A stretch of 64,000 bases of DNA, from positions 1 through 64,000 of the forward strand of contig JARLHO010000003.1 in assembly GCA_031292215.1 (NCBI GenBank), in the 5' to 3' direction. Below the pieces are notes generated by a model. That model had not been told where the DNA came from. It saw only the letters and a list, made by a program, of their open reading frames with translations, and did not search any database. This document shows, piece after piece, positions 1 through 13,365 of the stretch (its first letter is position 1; each line of letters begins with the position of its first letter). Source of the stretch: Syntrophobacteraceae bacterium (lineage in GTDB: Bacteria > Desulfobacterota > Syntrophobacteria > Syntrophobacterales > Syntrophobacteraceae). The translations under genes and the position numbers were made by a program.

Positions 1-336
1 CTTACAATTACCCACACATGCGCCCACCTATCTCCTTTTGCAAAGTTGCAAATAAGCCCAGCCGCCGCCTCCTTGGATGCGGTTTGAATAAGAATGAAAC
101 TTGACGTTTCCTATACGATTAATTTGTTGGGTTGCGCTGCGCTTAACCCAACCTACAAATGAAGTTTCATAAGAGGGAGGCGAGCGAGCCCGGCCGGTCC
201 ATGCGCGTCATTGCAAGCGGCTGGAGAGTAAATCCCCCCAACCCCCTTTTGCAAAAAAGGGGGGCGATCGGGCCAAGCCCCTTTCTTGGGAGTCTCCGCT
301 AAGGGGTAAGTGGGCGCATGTGTGGGTAATTGTCAG
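1..336. repeat. Dispersed inverted-repeat element, copy A, with nested insertion
   Basis: The ends 1-27 and 310-336 are inverted copies of each other over 27 nt with one mismatch. The interior matches the copy at 51942-52155 in reverse orientation, including the G-rich block near 235-265 and the segment near 265-310. Relative to that copy, 57-173 is extra sequence flanked by ATAAG at 52-56 and 169-173, so this copy was itself invaded. There is no ORF of note inside. The element abuts the window edge and could extend to the left. It looks like a non-autonomous MITE-like repeat. Confidence 0.8.
94..170. repeat. Nested palindromic module inside copy A
   Basis: The ends ATGAAACTT (94-102) and AAGTTTCAT (162-170) are perfect inverted repeats. 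Between them, around 126-152, lies a second palindrome with GTTGGGTT / AACCCAAC arms. The whole module can fold into one long hairpin. It is absent from the otherwise matching copy at 51942-52155, so it is a secondary insertion. The GTTGGGTT palindrome resembles short repeats common in many bacterial genomes (from memory, not checked). Confidence 0.65.
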
Positions 337-458: not shown

Positions 459-713
459 ATGCCCGGCGCCACCATAACCATTCGGATCGACCCGGAATTG
501 GCCGAAAATATTGGAGCCCTTGCCTCGGCTATGGACCGTTCGATGAATTGGTTGATCGAAGACGCTCTGAAGCAATATGTCCAGGAGCAAATGTGGCAAA
601 TCGAAGGTATTAAGGCCGCCATTGTCTCCCTTGACAAAGGGGAAGGTATTTCTCACGAGCAGGTCATGGCTGAGGCCGAGGCGGTTCTTAGCGAAAAAAA
701 TTCTTCACGATGA
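459..713 (+). CDS. CopG/RHH-family antitoxin of a ParDE-type pair
   Basis: An 84-residue protein. The N-terminus (residues 4-45) has the ribbon-helix-helix pattern: a short strand TITIRID, then two helices around LAENIGALASAMDRS and MNWLIEDALKQYV. Proteins of this kind bind their own promoter as dimers and neutralise the partner toxin through a C-terminal tail. The stop overlaps the start of the next gene (ATGA, 710-713), which is typical translational coupling of antitoxin and toxin. The pair sits just to the right of a mobile repeat. I assign the family by fold pattern; the exact subfamily (ParD or RelB-like) is uncertain. Confidence 0.85.
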   Translation: MPGATITIRIDPELAENIGALASAMDRSMNWLIEDALKQYVQEQMWQIEGIKAAIVSLDKGEGISHEQVMAEAEAVLSEKNSSR

Positions 714-997
714 AGATTCTTTGGTCTCGCCAGGCACGAGACGACCTTCTGGACATTTATCGATACATCTTTGCTGAAAATCCCGGCGCAGCCCGCGCCT
801 TGCATAAAAAAATTGTGTCCGGAGTACTGGCCCTTTTGGAAACACCACAAATCGGACGGCCGGGACGTGTGCCCGGCACGCGGGAAGTCGTTATTCCCGG
901 AGTCCCCTACATTGTCCCCTATCGGATAAGCGGCGAAATTCTGCAAATTCTGCGGGTTTATCACTACAAAAGGCTTTGGCCGGACTCCTTCGATTAA
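710..997 (+). CDS. RelE/ParE-family toxin
   Basis: A 95-residue protein with the RelE/ParE fold signature: an N-terminal WSRQARDDLLDIYRYI helix, a middle strand region with a basic IGRPGRVPGTRE segment, and a C-terminal strand ending in LRVYHYKR. Family members either inhibit gyrase (ParE) or cleave mRNA on the ribosome (RelE). The YRYI helix and the RVYHYKR tail fit ParE better. The gene overlaps its antitoxin by 4 nt. The ORF looks intact, so the pair is probably functional. Confidence 0.88.
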   Translation: MKILWSRQARDDLLDIYRYIFAENPGAARALHKKIVSGVLALLETPQIGRPGRVPGTREVVIPGVPYIVPYRISGEILQILRVYHYKRLWPDSFD

Positions 998-4302: not shown

Positions 4303-5037
4303 TTACTCCATGGATCGTCTGACGGAGAGAAAAGCAAAGATAAATAGCGCTACCCCAAGGGTGGCCAATACGAGAAAAGACAAGAGCTGTGGCCTCTCGC
4401 CAAAGGCGGCTGCCCGTATCGCTTTGGAGGCGTGGGTTAGTGGGAGGAAAAAAAGGATCCGCTGTGCCCAGGGCGGCATTTGGGCGATCGGAAAAAATGT
4501 TCCGCCAAGAAAGGCCATCGGGGTGATAAAAAAATTCGAAAGAAGCGCCTGGTCGGAATGCGATTTTACGAGCATCGCCAGGCCGACGGCAAGGGATGCG
4601 AAAACGAAGCTGTTTAGTAGGACGGCGATCCAAAAATAGAGGTTGTAGGAAAGGGTGACCCCCGAAAGGGCAGCGATCGCAATAATCAAGACGACCGAAA
4701 AAAGCGCCCGGGTGACTCCCGCAACCACCTCCCCCGCCACATAGGAAATGTTTGTTATGGGCGCTGCCTGAAACTCCTCGAAAATATGCCAGTAGAACCG
4801 CGCAATGTTTATTTCGCTTCCTATGGCGAACGCCTGGATCATGCTGTTCATCGCCACAAGCCCCGGGATCAGAAATTCGAGATACGAGCGCGACCCGACC
4901 GTTAAGCCCCGTCCCATCCCAAACCCGAAGGCCACCAGGTAGAGCAGCGGGCTTACCGACATGGAAGCCAGTTGCCTTAAAAACCTCTTGCGAAGGATCA
5001 GCATCTCCCGCAGGTAGATTGCGAGCATGCCGTTCAT
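4303..5037 (-). CDS. ABC-2 type transporter permease
   Basis: A 244-residue integral membrane protein with about six hydrophobic segments, for example near residues 25-45, 50-75, 100-130, 135-160, 165-190 and 220-240. The motif PMAFLGGTFFPIAQMP is characteristic of ABC-2 permeases (NodJ/DrrB type), where the loop before the last helices contains FxGxxFP. It should form an exporter with the ATPase encoded just upstream: the ATPase stop overlaps this start by 4 nt (5034-5037). Substrate unknown; relatives move lipids, polysaccharides or drugs outward. Confidence 0.88.
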   Translation of the reverse strand: MNGMLAIYLREMLILRKRFLRQLASMSVSPLLYLVAFGFGMGRGLTVGSRSYLEFLIPGLVAMNSMIQAFAIGSEINIARFYWHIFEEFQAAPITNISYVAGEVVAGVTRALFSVVLIIAIAALSGVTLSYNLYFWIAVLLNSFVFASLAVGLAMLVKSHSDQALLSNFFITPMAFLGGTFFPIAQMPPWAQRILFFLPLTHASKAIRAAAFGERPQLLSFLVLATLGVALFIFAFLSVRRSME

Positions 5038-5897
5038 GGCAAGACCTTCCTGCCGGTGCGGGAAATGAAAACATCTTCGAGGTTTACGCGCCGCAGGGAA
5101 AAATCCGCCTTAAATTCGGCTATATGGTTATTGGCCTCGTCTCTATCCCCGAAATAAAGAGTTTCCATGCTTCCCTCGACGATTCGGTCCAAAGCCCATA
5201 CGCCCATGGAGTTCATGAGGTTTTGAGGTGAATCCAGAGCCACTATTTTCCCATCGTCTAGGAATGCGACCCGGTCTGCCAGAAATTCCGCCTCTTCTAT
5301 GTAATGGGTGGTTAGAAAGATTGTCGCCCCGCTCTTCTGGATATTTTTTACAAGAGACCAGATGCGGCGTCTTATGGCCGGATCAAGACCCACCGTCGGC
5401 TCGTCTAGAAAAAGTATTCGGGGGGAATGCATGAGAGCCCGTGCGATCATGACTCTTCGTTTCAGCCCTCCGGAGAGCACCTTGACCGGGCTGTCGACCC
5501 TGTCGGCAAGCTCCACGTATTCCAGGACTTCGCCGATTCGCCGGGCGCGTTCCTTTCGCTCCATCTGGAAGAGTCTGCCGTGGAGGTTAAGGTTTTCGCA
5601 CACCGTGAGTTCGCTATCGAGATTTACATTCTGAGGGACGACTCCGCATTGACGCTTTGCCTGAAGGCTATCTTTACCTGTGTGAAACCCGTTTAGCCAC
5701 GCGTTGCCGGCAGTCGGGACCGCCAGGCCTGTCAGTATCTTTATGGTCGTAGTCTTACCCGAGCCGTTGGGCCCCAGGTAGGCAAACAGTTCCCCTTGCG
5801 GGACCTCCAGGCTAACCCCTCGCAGCGCCTCGATCCGGTTGTATTTCTTGTATAAATTCTCAAATCGAATCATCTCGGGTTCATCCTTGAACGGCAA
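5034..5897 (-). CDS. ABC transporter ATP-binding protein
   Basis: A 287-residue ATPase with all nucleotide-binding motifs: Walker A GPNGSGKTTT near residue 43, Q-loop near VPQNV, signature LSGGLKRR, Walker B ILFLDEPTVGLD, and the switch histidine in FLTTHY. The C-terminal 60 residues form the extra domain seen in DrrA/NodI-type exporter ATPases. First gene of a two-gene operon with the ABC-2 permease (4-nt overlap). Well supported as an exporter ATPase; the cargo cannot be told from sequence. Confidence 0.93.
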   Translation of the reverse strand: MPFKDEPEMIRFENLYKKYNRIEALRGVSLEVPQGELFAYLGPNGSGKTTTIKILTGLAVPTAGNAWLNGFHTGKDSLQAKRQCGVVPQNVNLDSELTVCENLNLHGRLFQMERKERARRIGEVLEYVELADRVDSPVKVLSGGLKRRVMIARALMHSPRILFLDEPTVGLDPAIRRRIWSLVKNIQKSGATIFLTTHYIEEAEFLADRVAFLDDGKIVALDSPQNLMNSMGVWALDRIVEGSMETLYFGDRDEANNHIAEFKADFSLRRVNLEDVFISRTGRKVLP

Positions 5898-6103
5898 AAA
5901 TTGGGGGATGAAAAAAGGAAATATTCTTCAAGAGCAGGTGCTTAAATTCCAGCCCTATGGTTAATGTCCACCATAACGCAACATAGGAGAGTTTTTTCCT
6001 TTTCGAGCCGGCATAGAGGGACGATGTATCGATGGAGTACGTTTTGAGACCCTGTGCTACCTTTTCACAAGAATGGAATTCGTTTAAAAACCGGAGAATA
6101 CTT

Positions 6104-6133
6104 TTGACATAAATGGAAATTCAACGCAATGAT
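6104..6133 (+). promoter_or_regulatory. Possible sigma-70 promoter of the methylase cassette
   Basis: A perfect -35 hexamer TTGACA (6104-6109) is followed after 18 nt by AATGAT (6128-6133), a four-of-six match to the -10 consensus. It lies about 24 nt before the ATG at 6157 and in the divergent spacer from the ABC operon. Confidence 0.4.
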
Positions 6134-6156
6134 AGGTATCAACCGGGAATAAAAAA

Positions 6157-6440
6157 ATGACTGTCATCAGCGGATTCACGTGTATTGGTGAGACTGGTTT
6201 TCCGGTAATTTGCGATGCTTGGGGAAATAACGTAGCATTTTGTCGAATCGGCTGCAGCCTCCCATCCTTGCAGTCGTTAGGGAACATCAGCGTGGTGTGT
6301 CGGTTTCAAGACCATCCGAATGGCCGGCGGGCAGCGCAGGAATCTGGATTGAGGTTCGAACGAAGACGCTTGCCCCCTTTGCTGATTCATTGGACAAAAG
6401 TGCTTCAATGTCAATTGATCGAATGAGAGCTTGCGGATGA
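6157..6440 (+). pseudogene. Frameshifted small ORF, possible zinc-ribbon protein, coupled to the methylase
   Basis: Reading from ATG 6157 gives a plausible start, MTVISGFTCIGETGFP, followed by DAWGNNVAFCRIGC. The natural continuation, PILAVVREHQRGVSV, lies in another frame that stays open to a TGA at 6438-6440. That stop overlaps the methylase ATG (6437) as ATGA, the usual sign of coupling, so the second frame appears to be genuine coding sequence. The frame change falls near 6238-6265 and corresponds to one missing base (or a -1 shift at CATTTTG). Joined, the product would have about 94 residues with a CxxC pair like half of a zinc ribbon. It may be a true pseudogene, an assembly error or a recoded gene. 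Confidence 0.55.
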
Positions 6441-9286
6441 GCAATCCCGGGAATTGGCTGACCGATTTCAGTGTTGGCGACAGCAGTGCTCTTGTGGACG
6501 GCCTTGTGCCCGTTCAGGGGTACGTTAAGGAGGGGCGACCATTCGAAGAAGTAGCGATCATGGAAAAGGCCGAGCATTACCGGGCGAATGCGGTTTTCTT
6601 CGAAGCACCTCGCGATGGTAAAGCTCCCGTGGCTCAGGCGTTTATCTATCGTTCGGATGGCCCGGCGCTAGACCCTGAGTTCGCTCAATTGCACCAACGA
6701 CTTTGGAGTTGGGGCGGCGTGCCGCTTGTCTATCGCGTTACAAGTGGGTTAGTTCAGCTTTTCCGTTGTGCGCACCGTCCTGATTTCGAGAGTGGCGGCA
6801 AAATCGTTTTCAAGCCTTTCAAGAAGCTGAAACTCGCTTCTCAAATCGCTGCAGATCCATGGTGGGACGCCGAACGTCTCCGCACTGGAACACTGTGGGA
6901 CGATCCGGCGGTGTGCAAGCAGCTTCTATCAAGCAAACAAGCGGCGCAAAAGACGCTTATTAACGCAATCAAGGAACTTTACCAGAAACTCGACAACCAA
7001 GACATCCTCCCCAAGGTGCTTTTGCGACGATTGCTCATCCTGTCGGTGCTTATTGCATATCTTGAAAAGCGAGGGGTTTTTGAGGACGGCTTCTTCGCCC
7101 GTTTCCTGCCTGGCGCGGGCGAGTTCTTTCAGGTGCTTGCCAACGGTCCAGCTCTTGTCGATTTGCTGAATCACCTGGAAGAACGGTTCAACGGACATGT
7201 GTTTATCATTGGCGACGAGGATTGCGGTCGGCTTCGCGATAGCAAGGAATTACCCCATTATGCCCGCCTGGTGGAAGGGCGGCAGGAGCCCGGCGGCCAA
7301 CTTACGCTCTGGCAGCGATACTCTTTTGCCGACCTTCCCGTAGAACTTATCAGTCACATCTACCAGCTTTTTGTGAAAGACATGGCAGCGGCGGTCTACA
7401 CCCCGCATTTTGTCGTCCGCCTACTGCTTGGTGAAGTTCTAAGCCCGGAGCGCCTGGATCGGCTGGAAAAAAACGACGAAATCATTCTGGATCCAGCTTG
7501 TGGATCCGGGATCTTCCTCGTCGAAGCTTACAAGAGGCTGGTGCTGCACTGGCGTTCTCGCAACAACTGGAAGCGCCCGGACCAGGCTACCCTTCAAAGA
7601 TTGCTGACGACAAGGCTCTGCGGCATTGATTTAGAGGAAGGCGCCGTCGAGCTCGCCGCTTTCAGCCTTTGTCTCGCGCTCTGCGATGCCTTGGAGCCGG
7701 AGGCGATTCGAGCCAGTGTAAAGCTCTTCCCGCCCTTAAAGGAAAAAACCATCCACACCGGTTGCTTTTTTGAGGCCCGCGAGTTGCAGACGGTGCAAGA
7801 GCGGGTTGGTGTAATCGTCGGAAATCCTCCGTTCGCATCAGAACTTGAGACATACGGTGCGCAACGGGCCTACGAGAGGTATCAGGAAGAACACGGCGCG
7901 CTCCCCGACAAGCAGGTTGCGTATCTCTTTCTCCACGAATCCATGGGGATGCTGGCGCCTGGCGGCGTGCTCTGCATGCTCCAGCAATATAACTTCCTCT
8001 ACAACCAGAGGTCGCTTGGGTTTCGGCGCAAGTTCATCGAGCTTTGGGATGTCCGGGAAATCCTGGATCTCATCTCGGTTCGCGGTCTCTTTCAGAAGGG
8101 AGGAGCCGATACCAAGGTCGTAGTCATCGTTGCCGAGGCACAATCGCCGCCACCGAAGCGGCAGATACTCCACGCGACCTTCCGCCGCAGCGGCCGTGCC
8201 AGCGCGGAACAGGGCTTCGACATTGATTATTATGATATGCACTGGCTGCCGCGAGATCTGGTGCTCGAAAATGATGGCGTGTGGCGATGTGACCTGCTGG
8301 GCGGCGGGCGCGTGCTTGGATTCGTAGATCGGCTGAGGAAGTTCAGGACTCTTGGGCAGTTTGCTGTCGAGCTGGGATGGGACCATGGAGAGGGATTCAT
8401 CGTCGGGAAATCGGGTAAGCGACCACCGGCAAGCCATCTGACTGGAAAGCCCTTTTTGCCTTCCAAGGCCATCATGGCCGATGGTATTGACGAGAACGCG
8501 ATAACTGAAGTGAAAGACGACTCGTTCAAGACAGCCTATAGCCCAAAGCGCTTTTCTCCGCCGATGCTGCTGATTCGTGAGCATATGGATATTGAGTGTG
8601 CGACTTGGTTTTCCAGTTACCTAACTTACAAGAATAAGGTTGTTGGTATCAACGGCGCCAAGCCAAATGACGCTTCTTTGCTCACCCAAATCGAAAGCTG
8701 GCTCAAGAAAGAGAGACTTCCACTTCGAGCATATGCTGCTGCCGTCAGCGTTAGACTCTTTACGCAGAAAGCCACTACATTGTCCGAGGTGGATATCCTC
8801 TCGCTTCCATTTCCAGAGAGCGGCTCACTTTCTATGGCCGCCCACGAGCAAATCATAGTCGCAGACATCGTGGACTACTATCGCGACCTTGTCCGTCTCG
8901 GCGAAGACTCTAAAGCTATGAAGGAACCAGGGATTTCTGCTTTGCCCGCGTTCAATGACGTCTTCACCTCCCGGATCAACGCCGTTTACAAAAAGAACAA
9001 ACTGCACGCACTAGATGAGCACGCTTGGCCGGGCGTGATTTGTCAGCCCTATATTTTCGGCGAGGGAAGGGTGGACTGGACCGGAGCGAACGAGCTCAAA
9101 GGAAAACTCGATGTCCTTCTGCGCGAAAAGCGGGGCGGCGGCCTCAATGTCACACGAATTGCCCGGCTCTACGATGGCGCATGCATATACCTGCTCAAGC
9201 CTGATCGGCTGCGATACTGGCTGCGCTCCATCGCTCTCCGGGACGCGGATGAGACACTGGCGGATTTGGCCGAACAGGGATTCTGA
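6437..9286 (+). CDS. N6-adenine DNA methylase, Eco57I/type IIG-like
   Basis: A 949-residue protein starting at ATG 6437, chosen over the in-frame TTG at 6431 because ATGA overlaps the stop of the preceding small frame. The SAM-binding motif I DPACGSGIF begins near residue 352 and the catalytic motif IV NPPF is at about 463-466, so it is an amino-methyltransferase of the gamma class that methylates adenine N6. The N-terminal 330 residues are mostly helical and resemble the front part of type IIG enzymes (RLWSWGGVPLVYRV block), but I see no PD-(D/E)XK triad there. The C-terminal about 350 residues probably recognise the target. With the nuclease candidate 12 nt downstream it may form a restriction-modification unit. 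Confidence 0.9.
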   Translation: MSNPGNWLTDFSVGDSSALVDGLVPVQGYVKEGRPFEEVAIMEKAEHYRANAVFFEAPRDGKAPVAQAFIYRSDGPALDPEFAQLHQRLWSWGGVPLVYRVTSGLVQLFRCAHRPDFESGGKIVFKPFKKLKLASQIAADPWWDAERLRTGTLWDDPAVCKQLLSSKQAAQKTLINAIKELYQKLDNQDILPKVLLRRLLILSVLIAYLEKRGVFEDGFFARFLPGAGEFFQVLANGPALVDLLNHLEERFNGHVFIIGDEDCGRLRDSKELPHYARLVEGRQEPGGQLTLWQRYSFADLPVELISHIYQLFVKDMAAAVYTPHFVVRLLLGEVLSPERLDRLEKNDEIILDPACGSGIFLVEAYKRLVLHWRSRNNWKRPDQATLQRLLTTRLCGIDLEEGAVELAAFSLCLALCDALEPEAIRASVKLFPPLKEKTIHTGCFFEARELQTVQERVGVIVGNPPFASELETYGAQRAYERYQEEHGALPDKQVAYLFLHESMGMLAPGGVLCMLQQYNFLYNQRSLGFRRKFIELWDVREILDLISVRGLFQKGGADTKVVVIVAEAQSPPPKRQILHATFRRSGRASAEQGFDIDYYDMHWLPRDLVLENDGVWRCDLLGGGRVLGFVDRLRKFRTLGQFAVELGWDHGEGFIVGKSGKRPPASHLTGKPFLPSKAIMADGIDENAITEVKDDSFKTAYSPKRFSPPMLLIREHMDIECATWFSSYLTYKNKVVGINGAKPNDASLLTQIESWLKKERLPLRAYAAAVSVRLFTQKATTLSEVDILSLPFPESGSLSMAAHEQIIVADIVDYYRDLVRLGEDSKAMKEPGISALPAFNDVFTSRINAVYKKNKLHALDEHAWPGVICQPYIFGEGRVDWTGANELKGKLDVLLREKRGGGLNVTRIARLYDGACIYLLKPDRLRYWLRSIALRDADETLADLAEQGF

Positions 9287-9298
9287 GGCTTCGCAACA

Positions 9299-10015
9299 AT
9301 GCTTACCGACAGTTTCAAAATGGTTCAATCAGGCAGGTTGGACCGGGACATTCACCTGCCTTCCACAGCGAAGATGGAGCTCGTTGGTTTCATCGCCGAG
9401 GAACTGCCACGTTGGCGCGATCACCCTGACCGGCCGGTCGCAGATGCGGAATCCACCCTGACCTCACAGCTATGCGAGCATCTCAATAGCGCTGTCTACT
9501 ACTCGGCCGCCTGGAGCCATGTCCAGTTTCGCACCGAGACTCCTGATGAAACGCGTGGTGGCAGGAGGATAGACCTCACGGTGAAGCCCCTTTCCGCCGC
9601 GCTCATCATAGAAGGCCGACGGCACAGCCAGTTTGACGCGCTGTTTCCAATTGAGTGCAAACGGCTCCCAACTCCGAGAGGAAGGGACCGGGATGAGCGG
9701 GAATACGTTATCACCGAATCCGGTACGACAGGCGGCATCCAGCGTTTCAAATTCGGATACCACGGCGCCGCGCATACCTTTGCGGCCATGATCGCTTACA
9801 TTCAGGAGCACTCGTTTTCCCACTGGCTGACCAAGATAAACTGCTGGATTCTGGACTTAGCGGCGCAGCCCAACTCGACCTGGAGTGACTCCGATATTCT
9901 CCGAACGCTGGGAGAGGACTCGACCACCCGGGTTAGCATTCTCAAGTCTCAGCATCAACGAGAGGGTGGTCTTGACGGATGCGAGTTGCGTCACCTTTGG
10001 ATCAGGGTAAGCTGA
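9299..10015 (+). CDS. Putative PD-(D/E)XK endonuclease of the methylase cassette
   Basis: A 238-residue protein not recognised as a named family. It shows the spaced residues of the PD-(D/E)XK nuclease fold: an early helix with E60 (SQLCEHLN), RRIDL with D92, the strand IECKRL with E119 and K121, and GIQRF with Q148, a position often conserved in restriction enzymes of this fold. The start ATG 9299 follows the methylase stop by 12 nt, so the two genes are almost certainly cotranscribed. Inference: it supplies cleavage in a two-component restriction system whose methylase lacks a visible nuclease domain. It could instead act only on nicked or modified DNA. Confidence 0.6.
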   Translation: MLTDSFKMVQSGRLDRDIHLPSTAKMELVGFIAEELPRWRDHPDRPVADAESTLTSQLCEHLNSAVYYSAAWSHVQFRTETPDETRGGRRIDLTVKPLSAALIIEGRRHSQFDALFPIECKRLPTPRGRDRDEREYVITESGTTGGIQRFKFGYHGAAHTFAAMIAYIQEHSFSHWLTKINCWILDLAAQPNSTWSDSDILRTLGEDSTTRVSILKSQHQREGGLDGCELRHLWIRVS

Positions 10016-10379
10016 ATCCACTTGGCTGAAATTGATAAAAGCATAGAGGCTGAGTGCCGGATTACCAGAAAGATCAGTCGGTCGTATCCTCCACTCTCCA
10101 GTCTTTTTTCTTCAATCCAAAACAGAATTCTGTATTTCTTTATAGCTTGCGCTTGTGTCCCATAATCTCCTCCAGCAGAGGAGACAAGCCTTATCGGGCA
10201 AGGATAAACGGAGGGGAATTCGTGCCGGCGGCAGCGGGGTTTTCGAATAGATTTGGCGTCTTGCCTGAAGAAAGCCCGTAATCTTTACGGGCAGCCTGGA
10301 TGTGTTCCAATTCCAACCCCCGGGAGGAGGCAAGCCAGGGGAAAAACAATCGCTACGGTCCGGGCCTTAGGCCGCCCGG
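10016..10379. other. Convergent spacer between methylase cassette and TauE operon
   Basis: 364 bases between two converging operons. Apart from the hairpin at 10274-10292 I see no gene; short ORFs here have no recognisable composition or domain. It marks the right border of the restriction-modification-like cassette. Confidence 0.5.
10274..10292 (-). terminator. Hairpin, possible terminator of the minus-strand operon
   Basis: A perfect 8-bp stem, GCCCGTAA / TTACGGGC, with a 3-nt loop. On the minus strand it is followed by TTTCTTC. The weak T-run makes it a modest intrinsic terminator. It lies about 90 nt beyond the stop of the receiver gene. Confidence 0.45.
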
Positions 10380-10778
10380 TTAATCTTTTTTCCTGCTCTC
10401 TTCGAAGCGACGGACCGCATCGAGGATATCGCCCAGCTTGAAGGGCTTGGCTACAAAATCGAAGGCCCCCTTTCTAAACGATTCCTTGGCGGTCTCCGAG
10501 GTGGCGAATCCCGTTATGACGATTATGCCCGTCTCCGGATAGAGCTCTTTTACCCGCGAGAGGAAAACCATTCCGTCGGCGCCTTCCATCTTGAGATCGG
10601 TAATCACTATGTCGAAGCGCTTTTCTTCGACCCTGGTCAAGGCGGAGGCGCTGTCGTTAAAGGTTTCAACGGCGTAGCCCGCCTTCTGGAAGGCGGGTTT
10701 TAGCCGTTTACAAACTATGGGCTCATCGTCGAGAATCAAAATCTCTGTTTCCCGGGCGCAATTCGCACATGGGGGCAT
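10380..10778 (-). CDS. Stand-alone response regulator receiver protein
   Basis: A 132-residue CheY-like protein without an output domain. The acidic pair is in ILDDEP, the phosphoacceptor aspartate in IVITDLKM, the conserved threonine in IVITGFAT, and the lysine in VAKPF. The start at 10778 is supported by a strong AAGGAGG site about 8 nt upstream, which places the gene 56 nt inside the end of the preceding PPDK-like gene. The tail CANCAR before the domain is unusual. Last gene of the operon. It may be phosphorylated by the histidine kinase at 15818-17347, but its target is unknown. Confidence 0.9.
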   Translation of the reverse strand: MPPCANCARETEILILDDEPIVCKRLKPAFQKAGYAVETFNDSASALTRVEEKRFDIVITDLKMEGADGMVFLSRVKELYPETGIIVITGFATSETAKESFRKGAFDFVAKPFKLGDILDAVRRFEESRKKD

Positions 10779-13365
10779 CGTCTCTCACCTCCTTAAGAAC
10801 ATGAATCCTTTGCATGAAATCGGCTAGATGAAAATCGATCCTCTCATCGCTGGTCATGTTGACATCGAGTTGGCGCGTATAACCTATCAGGCCGCCAAGG
10901 ACTTTCATCCTGCCGACCATTCTTTCCCGGGATAACTTCTTTAGCCTGCCGACAATCAGATCTCCGTGAATTTCGGCTAGAAAATCAAATCCCACCATGA
11001 CGTCGGCGATAAATTTCGCCCGTCGCGAGCGGCGCTCAACGGTGGAAACGCCGCCGAGAAAGCGAAAATAGATGTAATTATCGTTTATCTCCTCCCCGAT
11101 ATAGGAGTCGAGGATACTGAAGTGGTAGCCCAACCGGAGGTGCAGATTCATGTAGGTATCCGACACCACCGCGAGGTTTCGCCCGACATCTTCGGGGCGC
11201 GCCATCGTGGAACTGAAGGTGCGCGAAAAGCTCGACATGAAGCTGCCCATGTCCACCGCGACAGGCGCCGTCTCCCACATGCGGCTCTCAATAAGTCCTT
11301 CCAGGAGCGCTTTCATGGGCGTTGAGGTAACCTGCTCAAGGGTAAGGGACTTGGCCTCGGGGAGCGCACTCGTTCCCTTGCCGATGTCGATGATCGTCAG
11401 GTCGAGCGGAATCGGGTATTTTAACCGCTTGGACCCCTTGTCGTGATAGCGCTGGTAATTCTCGCTCAAATCTATGAGACTCTCAACAGCTTTTTCATGA
11501 ACGAAGCGGGTGATGTCGTGAAATGTCTGGCAGCGGGCCGCCCGGAAGATTTCACTGTTGGGGTCCACGAGATTTAGCGGGGTCACCTTTTTTAGCACCC
11601 TTTTTAGCATGCGGTATTCGTAGGTTTCCTCGAATACCTCCTCCTGGGTGATTTCAAATTGGCTGAGCTCTTTTACCGTGCCCGCATAGACCACGTTCCG
11701 GATAGCGTCGAGAGTCACTACGTCTCCGGTTTTCAGCACCTTGGTAGCTATCCCGGTATCCACAACCGTTGGGACGCGGTATTCGCGAGCCAGGGTGGCC
11801 ATATGGCCCGTGGCCGAACCGATATCGGTCAGTATGGCCCGCGCCTTGCGCATGATCCGCGAATACTTGGGCGAGGTGTGATGGGCGACCAGGATGGCCC
11901 CGAAGGGGAAATCCTTTAAATCGTCATCGGTCGCGGTAACATAGACCGTTCCCGACGCCACGCCCCCCTGCACAACGGTGCCTTTACCCGAAAAGAGCGC
12001 CTGCGCGGACAGGGCGGCGTTATCGATATGGGGCCTGTGGAGTTCGGGCTGGGTGGGCTTAACATTTAAAGGCCTTGATTGCAGGATGAAAAGATTTCCC
12101 TGCCTGTCAATGGCCCACTCCACGTCCTGCGGGCGCCTGTAGTATCTTTCAATCATCGCCGCCGTCTGGGCAAGCCTTTGGATGTACTCCCCGGAAAGGC
12201 ACGCCGCATCCTGGAGCTCTTCTGGGACATCGACCCAGGCGGTCCCTCCGTTTTGTTCCCCGATGATTTTACTTGCCTTGTGGCCCGCCTCGATAGAAAG
12301 GACGCGGTGAGGGGGAAGCCTGTCTAGAAAAATGGTGTCCGATTCGGCCGTGCCGCTCACAACGGCCTCGCCAAGGCCCCAGGCGGCGCTTATCACCATG
12401 GCTTCGGTTTCCGCGGCTACCGGCGCATACGTGTACATCGCCCCGCTCACCTCGGCTTCGACCATCAACTGGCACCCCACGGCCATGGCCGTCTCGCTTT
12501 CGCGGTACCCCCGGTGAAGCCTGTAGCGCAGAGCCTCGGGCGTGTAGACACTCGCCGCCACCTCCCGCCAGGCATCGATAACTCCTTTCCTCGGGACATT
12601 CAGGACGCTCTCATACTGGCCGGCGAAGCTGAATTCGGAATCCTCGCCCCAGGCGCTGCTGCGCACCGCAAACCGGAGGGTGTTTGCCCGGTTCCTGCCG
12701 CAAATGATGTCAAGGGCCGCATGGATCGCCGAGACTATGTGCCGGGGCATGGTCCCGGACAAAATCCGCCGGCGCACCTCCTCGCAGAAAGCTTCGAGAA
12801 TGGACTCATCGGCCAAATCCAACTCGGCAAGCCCTTTTTCTATATGTTTAAAGAGGCCGTTGGCCTCCATGAAATCGAAAAAAGATCTCGTCGTTACAAC
12901 GAATCCATCCATGGTGGGAAGATCGAGCGTGTTTCGGATTTCCCCGAGGTTTGCGAACTTGTTGCCGGCCTCCTCGCTAAAGTCGCCGTTTAGCTCGTCT
13001 AGCAGCAGCACCGGTTTTGTAACAGGCACCGCCCTCCTGCCCGCCAACTCTTCCTGGATTTGAAATTGAATGCGTTCGAAGGCGACAAAAAGATCCACTA
13101 TCTCGCTCTGCGTCATGACGCACAGATCCGAGATCAGCTTAAAGACCAGATCGCTGATTCTCCCCGTGCTGTCTACAACAAACTGGCTGTCGAATATATA
13201 TTCTCCTCCCAGCTTGTCGCCCATGTCCGCCATCAGTTCCAAAATGAGGTTGTTGCGCTCCAGGATGCTCCTGAATTTTTTGAAAAGCACGGTGAAGGGC
13301 AAAACCGGCTGCGAAGAGGACCGGAAAAGGGTAAAGAACTTTTTGAGCCCGCAAACGATATCCAT
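10723..13365 (-). CDS. PPDK/PEP synthase-like protein lacking the PEP-binding barrel
   Basis: 880 residues. After about 110 N-terminal residues of unknown type comes the ATP-grasp pyruvate/PEP synthase domain, recognisable by KFANLGEI, the RSSAWGEDS loop and SFAGQYESVLNV, ending near VEWAIDRQGNLFILQSRP. Then comes the swivelling phosphohistidine domain with the histidine in SATGHMATLAREY (usual form TSHAA). The C-terminal TIM barrel that binds PEP in full-length enzymes is absent. Instead there are about 300 residues of unrecognised sequence. Real PEP synthesis is therefore doubtful; phosphotransfer to another acceptor is an alternative. Such PEP/pyruvate-binding proteins occur beside tauE and two-component genes in deltaproteobacteria (family knowledge). 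Confidence 0.82.
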   Translation of the reverse strand: MDIVCGLKKFFTLFRSSSQPVLPFTVLFKKFRSILERNNLILELMADMGDKLGGEYIFDSQFVVDSTGRISDLVFKLISDLCVMTQSEIVDLFVAFERIQFQIQEELAGRRAVPVTKPVLLLDELNGDFSEEAGNKFANLGEIRNTLDLPTMDGFVVTTRSFFDFMEANGLFKHIEKGLAELDLADESILEAFCEEVRRRILSGTMPRHIVSAIHAALDIICGRNRANTLRFAVRSSAWGEDSEFSFAGQYESVLNVPRKGVIDAWREVAASVYTPEALRYRLHRGYRESETAMAVGCQLMVEAEVSGAMYTYAPVAAETEAMVISAAWGLGEAVVSGTAESDTIFLDRLPPHRVLSIEAGHKASKIIGEQNGGTAWVDVPEELQDAACLSGEYIQRLAQTAAMIERYYRRPQDVEWAIDRQGNLFILQSRPLNVKPTQPELHRPHIDNAALSAQALFSGKGTVVQGGVASGTVYVTATDDDLKDFPFGAILVAHHTSPKYSRIMRKARAILTDIGSATGHMATLAREYRVPTVVDTGIATKVLKTGDVVTLDAIRNVVYAGTVKELSQFEITQEEVFEETYEYRMLKRVLKKVTPLNLVDPNSEIFRAARCQTFHDITRFVHEKAVESLIDLSENYQRYHDKGSKRLKYPIPLDLTIIDIGKGTSALPEAKSLTLEQVTSTPMKALLEGLIESRMWETAPVAVDMGSFMSSFSRTFSSTMARPEDVGRNLAVVSDTYMNLHLRLGYHFSILDSYIGEEINDNYIYFRFLGGVSTVERRSRRAKFIADVMVGFDFLAEIHGDLIVGRLKKLSRERMVGRMKVLGGLIGYTRQLDVNMTSDERIDFHLADFMQRIHVLKEVRDDAPMCELRPGNRDFDSRR

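Follow-up and report, generated by a model that had tools for sequence, protein, structure and literature searches.

A Type IIG-like methylase gene and its small putative nuclease partner, probably a mobile Type II-like restriction-modification system, in a Syntrophobacteraceae genome

In Type IIG restriction enzymes the nuclease is a permanent part of the N-terminus of the methylase polypeptide (PMC3874165). For Haloferax volcanii, the authors of an earlier study proposed that a separate PD-(D/E)XK protein serves a methylase devoid of its own nuclease (HVO_A0006 and HVO_A0237; PMC4389544). Here we describe two adjacent genes, M and R, located in a 64,000-nucleotide stretch of DNA from a Syntrophobacteraceae bacterium (assembly GCA_031292215.1, contig JARLHO010000003.1, positions 1 to 64,000; hereafter the window) and encoding, respectively, an adenine methylase with Type IIG layout and a 238-residue putative nuclease. 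We consider that this pair is probably a horizontally moving, two-gene restriction-modification (RM) system of the Type II-like kind. A first-pass annotation of the window had proposed an RM cassette corresponding to no named system and consisting of three open reading frames (ORFs); the best reading of that proposal is the M-R pair, with nuclease activity and restriction as predictions, whereas the third component, a small 5′ ORF, does not survive (see below).

M and R are linked far beyond chance. Wherever we inspected an R homologue on intact DNA, an M homologue lies directly upstream of it, and the gap between the two genes lies between -20 and +12 nt in every locus measured (12 nt from the M stop to the R start in the window, by ORF coordinates, as first annotated). 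A tblastn search with R retrieved 20 plasmid records, all of them alphaproteobacterial and at 42-51% identity, and a search of plasmids with M retrieved 22 records, 20 of which are the R records, with M adjoining R. The two remaining records are a truncated Rhizobium etli M without R and a distant Bradyrhizobium M that, on inspection, has an R-like neighbour, bringing the proportion to 21/22 with the truncated gene as the exception. Homologues of the methylase thus do not routinely lack R, a possibility that the first-pass annotation had raised against itself; the neighbourhood linkage it envisaged for all three ORFs holds for M and R but not for the small ORF, which has no homologue upstream of 22 other M genes. 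Six further loci in assembled genome contigs encode R at 57-70% identity with M directly upstream at 65-72%, in metagenome-assembled genomes labelled Geobacteraceae, Verrucomicrobia/Akkermansiaceae, Phycisphaerales and Armatimonadetes. Whole-genome searches added mostly divergent loci (M 22-39%, R 25-37%), again in the order M then R, and the same gene order is found in distant plasmid pairs of Bradyrhizobium, Mameliella, Sagittula and Agrobacterium. The pair thus occurs on plasmids of Alphaproteobacteria and in genomes of Thermodesulfobacteriota, Verrucomicrobiota, Planctomycetota and Armatimonadota, that is, in at least five phyla. Distances between M cores correlate with those between R proteins, both for 10 alphaproteobacterial pairs (r 0.97, Mantel p <0.001) and for seven near pairs (r 0.73, Mantel p 0.009). 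In phages no relative was found, and IMG/VR yielded one, its N-terminus cut by an insertion element. A distant pair on an Agrobacterium tumefaciens plasmid (L083 2495-5384) has an M annotated with only 739 residues, the end of which is overlapped by the R-like neighbour.

Evidence for mobility comes from a congener of the window genome, G412, which has an empty site. Window positions 4304-5873 and 10392-13365 align at ~80% identity to its contig 30 (L077 5305-3736 and 3641-680), and the two homologous flanks are 94 bp apart there, as compared with ~4.5 kb in the window. The ATP-binding cassette (ABC) transporter, response-regulator and phosphoenolpyruvate (PEP)-synthase-like genes are contiguous in this congener, and therefore form one minus-strand block, into which the cassette has been inserted in the opposite orientation; the first-pass view of a cassette lying between an ABC operon promoter and a separate convergent operon has to be abandoned. 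Besides the window genome, only one of 10 congeners has a true M, which lies at the end of a contig, and close relatives are found in other phyla, which argues for horizontal spread. The pair is rare, being found in 2/395, 5/388 and 4/392 genomes of three phyla (~1%). Broken copies exist, which is what one would expect if a mobile defence module carries a cost: R is cut by an IS3-type element in one locus (L015 636-1343) and has an internal stop in another (L011 3138-3860), and M is interrupted by a stop in a third (L008 3031-5943). From the sequences compared, the junction (window 5876-10391) seems prone to insertion; at the same junction the congener G411 (L078) has a different short insertion, apparently containing a small GIY-YIG-type ORF.

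The assignment of M as an N6-adenine methylase of 949 residues, already made in the first-pass annotation, is confirmed by its Pfam matches (N6_Mtase, 8e-13; MmeI_Mtase, 6e-11; Eco57I, 8e-11). M has a gamma-class methyltransferase core with a recognition region predicted C-terminal to it, as in Type IIG enzymes. This region (residues 635-800) is only 30-66% identical among near homologues, as compared with 62-87% for the other parts of the protein, and such variability is as expected of a target-recognition region. An AlphaFold2 model of M obtained from a seven-sequence alignment was unusable, with a predicted local distance difference test (pLDDT) score of 43.6.

R is probably the DNA-cutting partner of M, judging from its conserved residues. 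E51, D92, E119 and K121 are invariant in 16 R sequences and follow each other in the order typical of PD-(D/E)XK nucleases; R149, K151, H155, Q169 and H232 are also conserved. Distant members (25-37% identity) keep E51, E119 and K121, as well as D92 with the exception of the fragment L049, and the ECKRL motif is also present in the distant Bradyrhizobium R-like protein (VDLAV...YECKRL). As the order E...D...ExK arises by chance in 28% of shuffles of the window R alone, it is conservation across homologues, and not any one sequence, that makes the pattern significant. The residues originally singled out are partly upheld: D92 and E119-x-K121 are conserved, whereas E60 is not (E51 is), and Q148 is mostly kept but replaced by E or C in distant members. 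R is, moreover, under purifying selection (dS 0.44 and dN 0.06 synonymous and nonsynonymous substitutions per site, dN/dS ~0.14, for one homologous pair).

In the mechanism that we propose, M would read an asymmetric DNA site via its C-terminal target-recognition region and methylate adenine on host DNA, presumably at N6 rather than N4, and R would act as a small Mg2+-dependent PD-(D/E)XK endonuclease cutting unmodified incoming DNA. Within the Type II-like reading our preferred form is a 'split Type IIG' system, to which we give somewhat less than an even chance: cutting would be the task of R, acting as a subunit of its own that the recognition domain of M guides to the target. Nuclease activity, restriction and this M-guided targeting are all inferred from sequence. 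Less likely than not, in our view, is a wider claim: that split Type IIG systems form a widespread class, with a dead N-terminal domain in M and with R, a 238-residue PD-(D/E)XK protein from a new family of nucleases, as a detachable subunit that M directs to its site, so that specificity could change through the recognition region of M alone, R staying unchanged.

The split form competes with a classical Type II system in which R recognises and cuts DNA alone and M only protects. The adjacent M and R genes, inherited together, have the Type II gene organisation (the endonuclease being putative), and separate R and M genes are indeed the ordinary Type II arrangement. The recognition region of one locus, L010, has been replaced (30-33% identity) relative to the window, L043 and L012, while R is still 64-66% identical; the window and L043, with recognition regions 66% identical, likewise have R proteins at 64-66%. 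That R similarity is unchanged where the recognition region has been replaced suggests that R is aimed by M, but this is not decisive, as few loci are concerned. Pointing the other way, once the M core is accounted for, recognition region and R are positively correlated in the larger sets (partial correlation 0.52, p 0.001, for 17 loci, a value that mixing two divergent groups may have inflated; 0.40, p 0.008, in the alphaproteobacterial group), as would be the case if R had a specificity of its own. For the near group taken by itself the value is 0.23 (p 0.23). The last 60 residues of R, which are less conserved (37-63% in 30-residue windows), could hold a recognition element of this kind. 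However, R offers little room for a recognition domain in addition to a catalytic core, and M is built on the large plan of Type IIG enzymes, unlike a small stand-alone methylase. We regard the classical arrangement as unlikely, if still a serious competitor.

Several results speak against the reading of R as a nuclease. Neither the window protein nor 14 diverse members matched anything in Pfam, PADLOC, NCBIfam or PHROGs beyond chance-level hits, and sequence and profile searches of the PDB gave nothing credible (chance-level matches only, e.g. focal adhesion kinase); no nuclease known from these collections is related to R by sequence. Comparison of R by hhalign with the N-terminal domain of M itself, or with one MmeI N-terminal domain sequence, detected nothing. 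The AlphaFold2 model of R (seven sequences) has a pLDDT of 67.5, falling below 50 around D92, and a Foldseek search of the PDB with it returned no match at E <= 0.001. Its confident elements (helix 51-67, strands 75-79, 116-122 with E119 and K121, and 161-168, helix 173-189) are compatible with the order of the alpha-beta-beta-beta-alpha-beta core of PD-(D/E)XK nucleases, with the caveat that D92 lies in an unreliable stretch of a model at pLDDT 67. Since the nuclease role of R is a prediction and its model has no credible structural match, M could alternatively be an orphan methylase or act in epigenetic control, with R as a partner that is not a nuclease but, for example, a stability factor. 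We hold this to be improbable: the scattered occurrence of the pair, its presence on plasmids, the defence genes beside it and the invariant E-D-ExK set all point to restriction.

Still less probable is a single-chain Type IIG enzyme in which the N-terminal domain of M is the nuclease and R a regulator or accessory factor. The best PADLOC model for M is that of a Type IIG enzyme (1e-30), and one homologue was deposited under the name 'type I endonuclease-methyltransferase fusion protein'. The PADLOC match, however, spans residues 164-723, outside the N-terminal domain, and this domain keeps no D...ExK signature in 12 homologues (10-12 aligned), in agreement with the earlier observation that the methylase has no nuclease triad of its own; a catalytic nuclease domain hidden inside M, which the first-pass annotation had suggested looking for, has left no conserved signature there. 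The only invariant positions among the N-terminal 160 residues are L23, H86, W90, G93, P96, C111, F117 and P127, and the strand expected to carry ExK reads AQAF, PQVY or AAYV, depending on the member; we regard this N-terminus as a putative degenerate nuclease-like domain. A single-chain enzyme would also leave the conserved acidic and lysine residues of R unexplained. The least probable alternative is a Pgl-like or bacteriophage exclusion (BREX)-like system, in which M methylates the host, foreign DNA is blocked without cutting and R is a minor effector: the M core does match PglX models and BrxX in the PDB, but the matches to PglX fall well short of the threshold score (45 vs 900 bits and similar) and no BrxC, PglZ or other BREX component lies beside the pair in the annotated loci viewed.

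Elsewhere, the pair has defence genes as neighbours, namely Shedu with a PIN protein, AbiH, SIR2, TIR with SIR2, an MmeI-type RM enzyme with a helicase and a GIY-YIG protein, and a Type ISP fragment. In locus L045 (227-11050) a complete MmeI-type enzyme of 917 residues lies upstream of the M-R pair, which is followed on the same strand by a 260-residue unknown protein, a DEAD/ResIII helicase and a T5orf172/MUG113 GIY-YIG-type protein. Another locus from the window's own phylum (L033 2921-9858, genome G153) contains a divergent M-R pair and then, without a gap, a 730-residue DUF1156/HmaB-like methylase and a 351-residue protein of no family; from its gene content this is possibly a larger system built on the M-R pair.

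The small 5′ ORF, described in the first-pass annotation as a cassette member coupled to the methylase by ATGA, is very unlikely to be a gene, judging from its composition and lack of homologues. As a third component it was tried and rejected, since no homologue occurs upstream of 22 other M genes. Two upstream frames come into question, 6157-6426 and a 66-codon frame at 6240-6440 that ends in ATGA; for neither was a family or homologue found, and their third-position GC content (GC3) is not coding-like (51% in the small ORF vs 61-66% in M and R). Furthermore, DNA similarity to the same-genus copy begins only ~20 bp 5′ of the M start codon. The rejected ORF contains a weak promoter-like sequence, common to some homologues, which a strict consensus scan missed; the scan gave 6104-6133 instead, with a number of matches no higher than chance. 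An Rfam search found nothing. In alphaproteobacterial loci, a probable ribbon-helix-helix protein of 61-70 residues, unrelated to the small ORF of the window, is encoded directly 5′ of M (L003 2926-3120, L004 2958-3152, L006 2831-3043, L007 2867-3052, and others), and is a candidate regulator of the M-R pair. A Bradyrhizobium locus instead encodes a 158-residue protein judged to be MerR-like by reading its sequence (L051 4297-4773). Neither kind of small regulator is present in the window. The features of the locus are collected in Table 1.

Table 1. Positions of the features discussed, in window coordinates or, for the parts of M, in residues.
Feature	Position	Strand	Basis or remark
M, 949-residue gamma-type N6-adenine DNA methyltransferase, Type IIG-like architecture	6437..9283	+	Pfam, PADLOC, alignments
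M, N-terminal domain without conserved catalytic residues	residues ~1-160		
M, helical spacer	residues 160-310		
M, methyltransferase core	DPACGSG, residues 352-358; NPPF, residues 463-466		
M, variable target-recognition region	residues ~635-800		inferred from position and variability
M, probable target-recognition region (residues 635-800)	8339..8836	+	position after the methyltransferase core; variability
M, conserved C-terminal region	residues 800-949		
R, 238-residue putative PD-(D/E)XK nuclease	9299..10012	+	conserved residues, dN/dS; no library match
Inserted module, absent from congener G412	5876..10391	.	approximate limits, set where empty-site similarity ends
Possible weak promoter (TTGGACA ... 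AATTGAT) just 5′ of M	6390..6419	+	partly common to homologous loci
Small ORF of the first-pass annotation, rejected as a gene	6157..6426	+	no family, no homologue, GC3

If R is indeed a nuclease, it adds a restriction-nuclease family that is missing from Pfam, PADLOC, NCBIfam and PHROGs; annotation pipelines show the methylase alone and leave R as a 'hypothetical protein'. The split form, if correct, would provide a natural example of the modular arrangement that figures in models for the interconversion of Type I, Type IIG and Type II systems (PMC6158711). Such a small nuclease subunit, guided by a methylase that can be exchanged, would also have practical use as a tool. We found no description of the M-R pair in a literature search that had most subscription journals and REBASE outside its reach, and entries for these M genes, with some type assigned by the curators, may already exist in REBASE.

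With BREX PglX/BrxX and CamA, M shares a related methyltransferase core, but there are no BREX genes here and the accessory protein is a different one. Classical Type II pairs resemble the locus in consisting of adjacent genes for a methylase and, in our case putatively, a PD-(D/E)XK nuclease; unlike in those pairs, M has 949 residues and the Type IIG layout, and the sequence of R is unlike that of any known restriction enzyme. As in Type I systems (HsdR, HsdM, HsdS), the restriction subunit would be separate from a gamma-class methyltransferase, but R, with 238 residues and no Pfam match, has no motor or translocase domain, recognition is apparently fused to M, and the cassette has no S gene. 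The Haloferax genes come from a single species, in which they are fragments of Type IIG-like genes and not linked to each other; in the pair described here, in contrast, M keeps a full-length N-terminal domain, R has no homology to that domain detectable by hhalign, and the pair is conserved across phyla. With the Type IIG enzymes (Eco57I, BpuSI, MmeI and the RM subunit of BcgI) M shares the order of N-terminal domain, helical spacer, gamma-class N6-methyltransferase and recognition region; M differs from them in that conserved catalytic residues are missing from its N-terminal domain, the putative nuclease being encoded by a separate gene.

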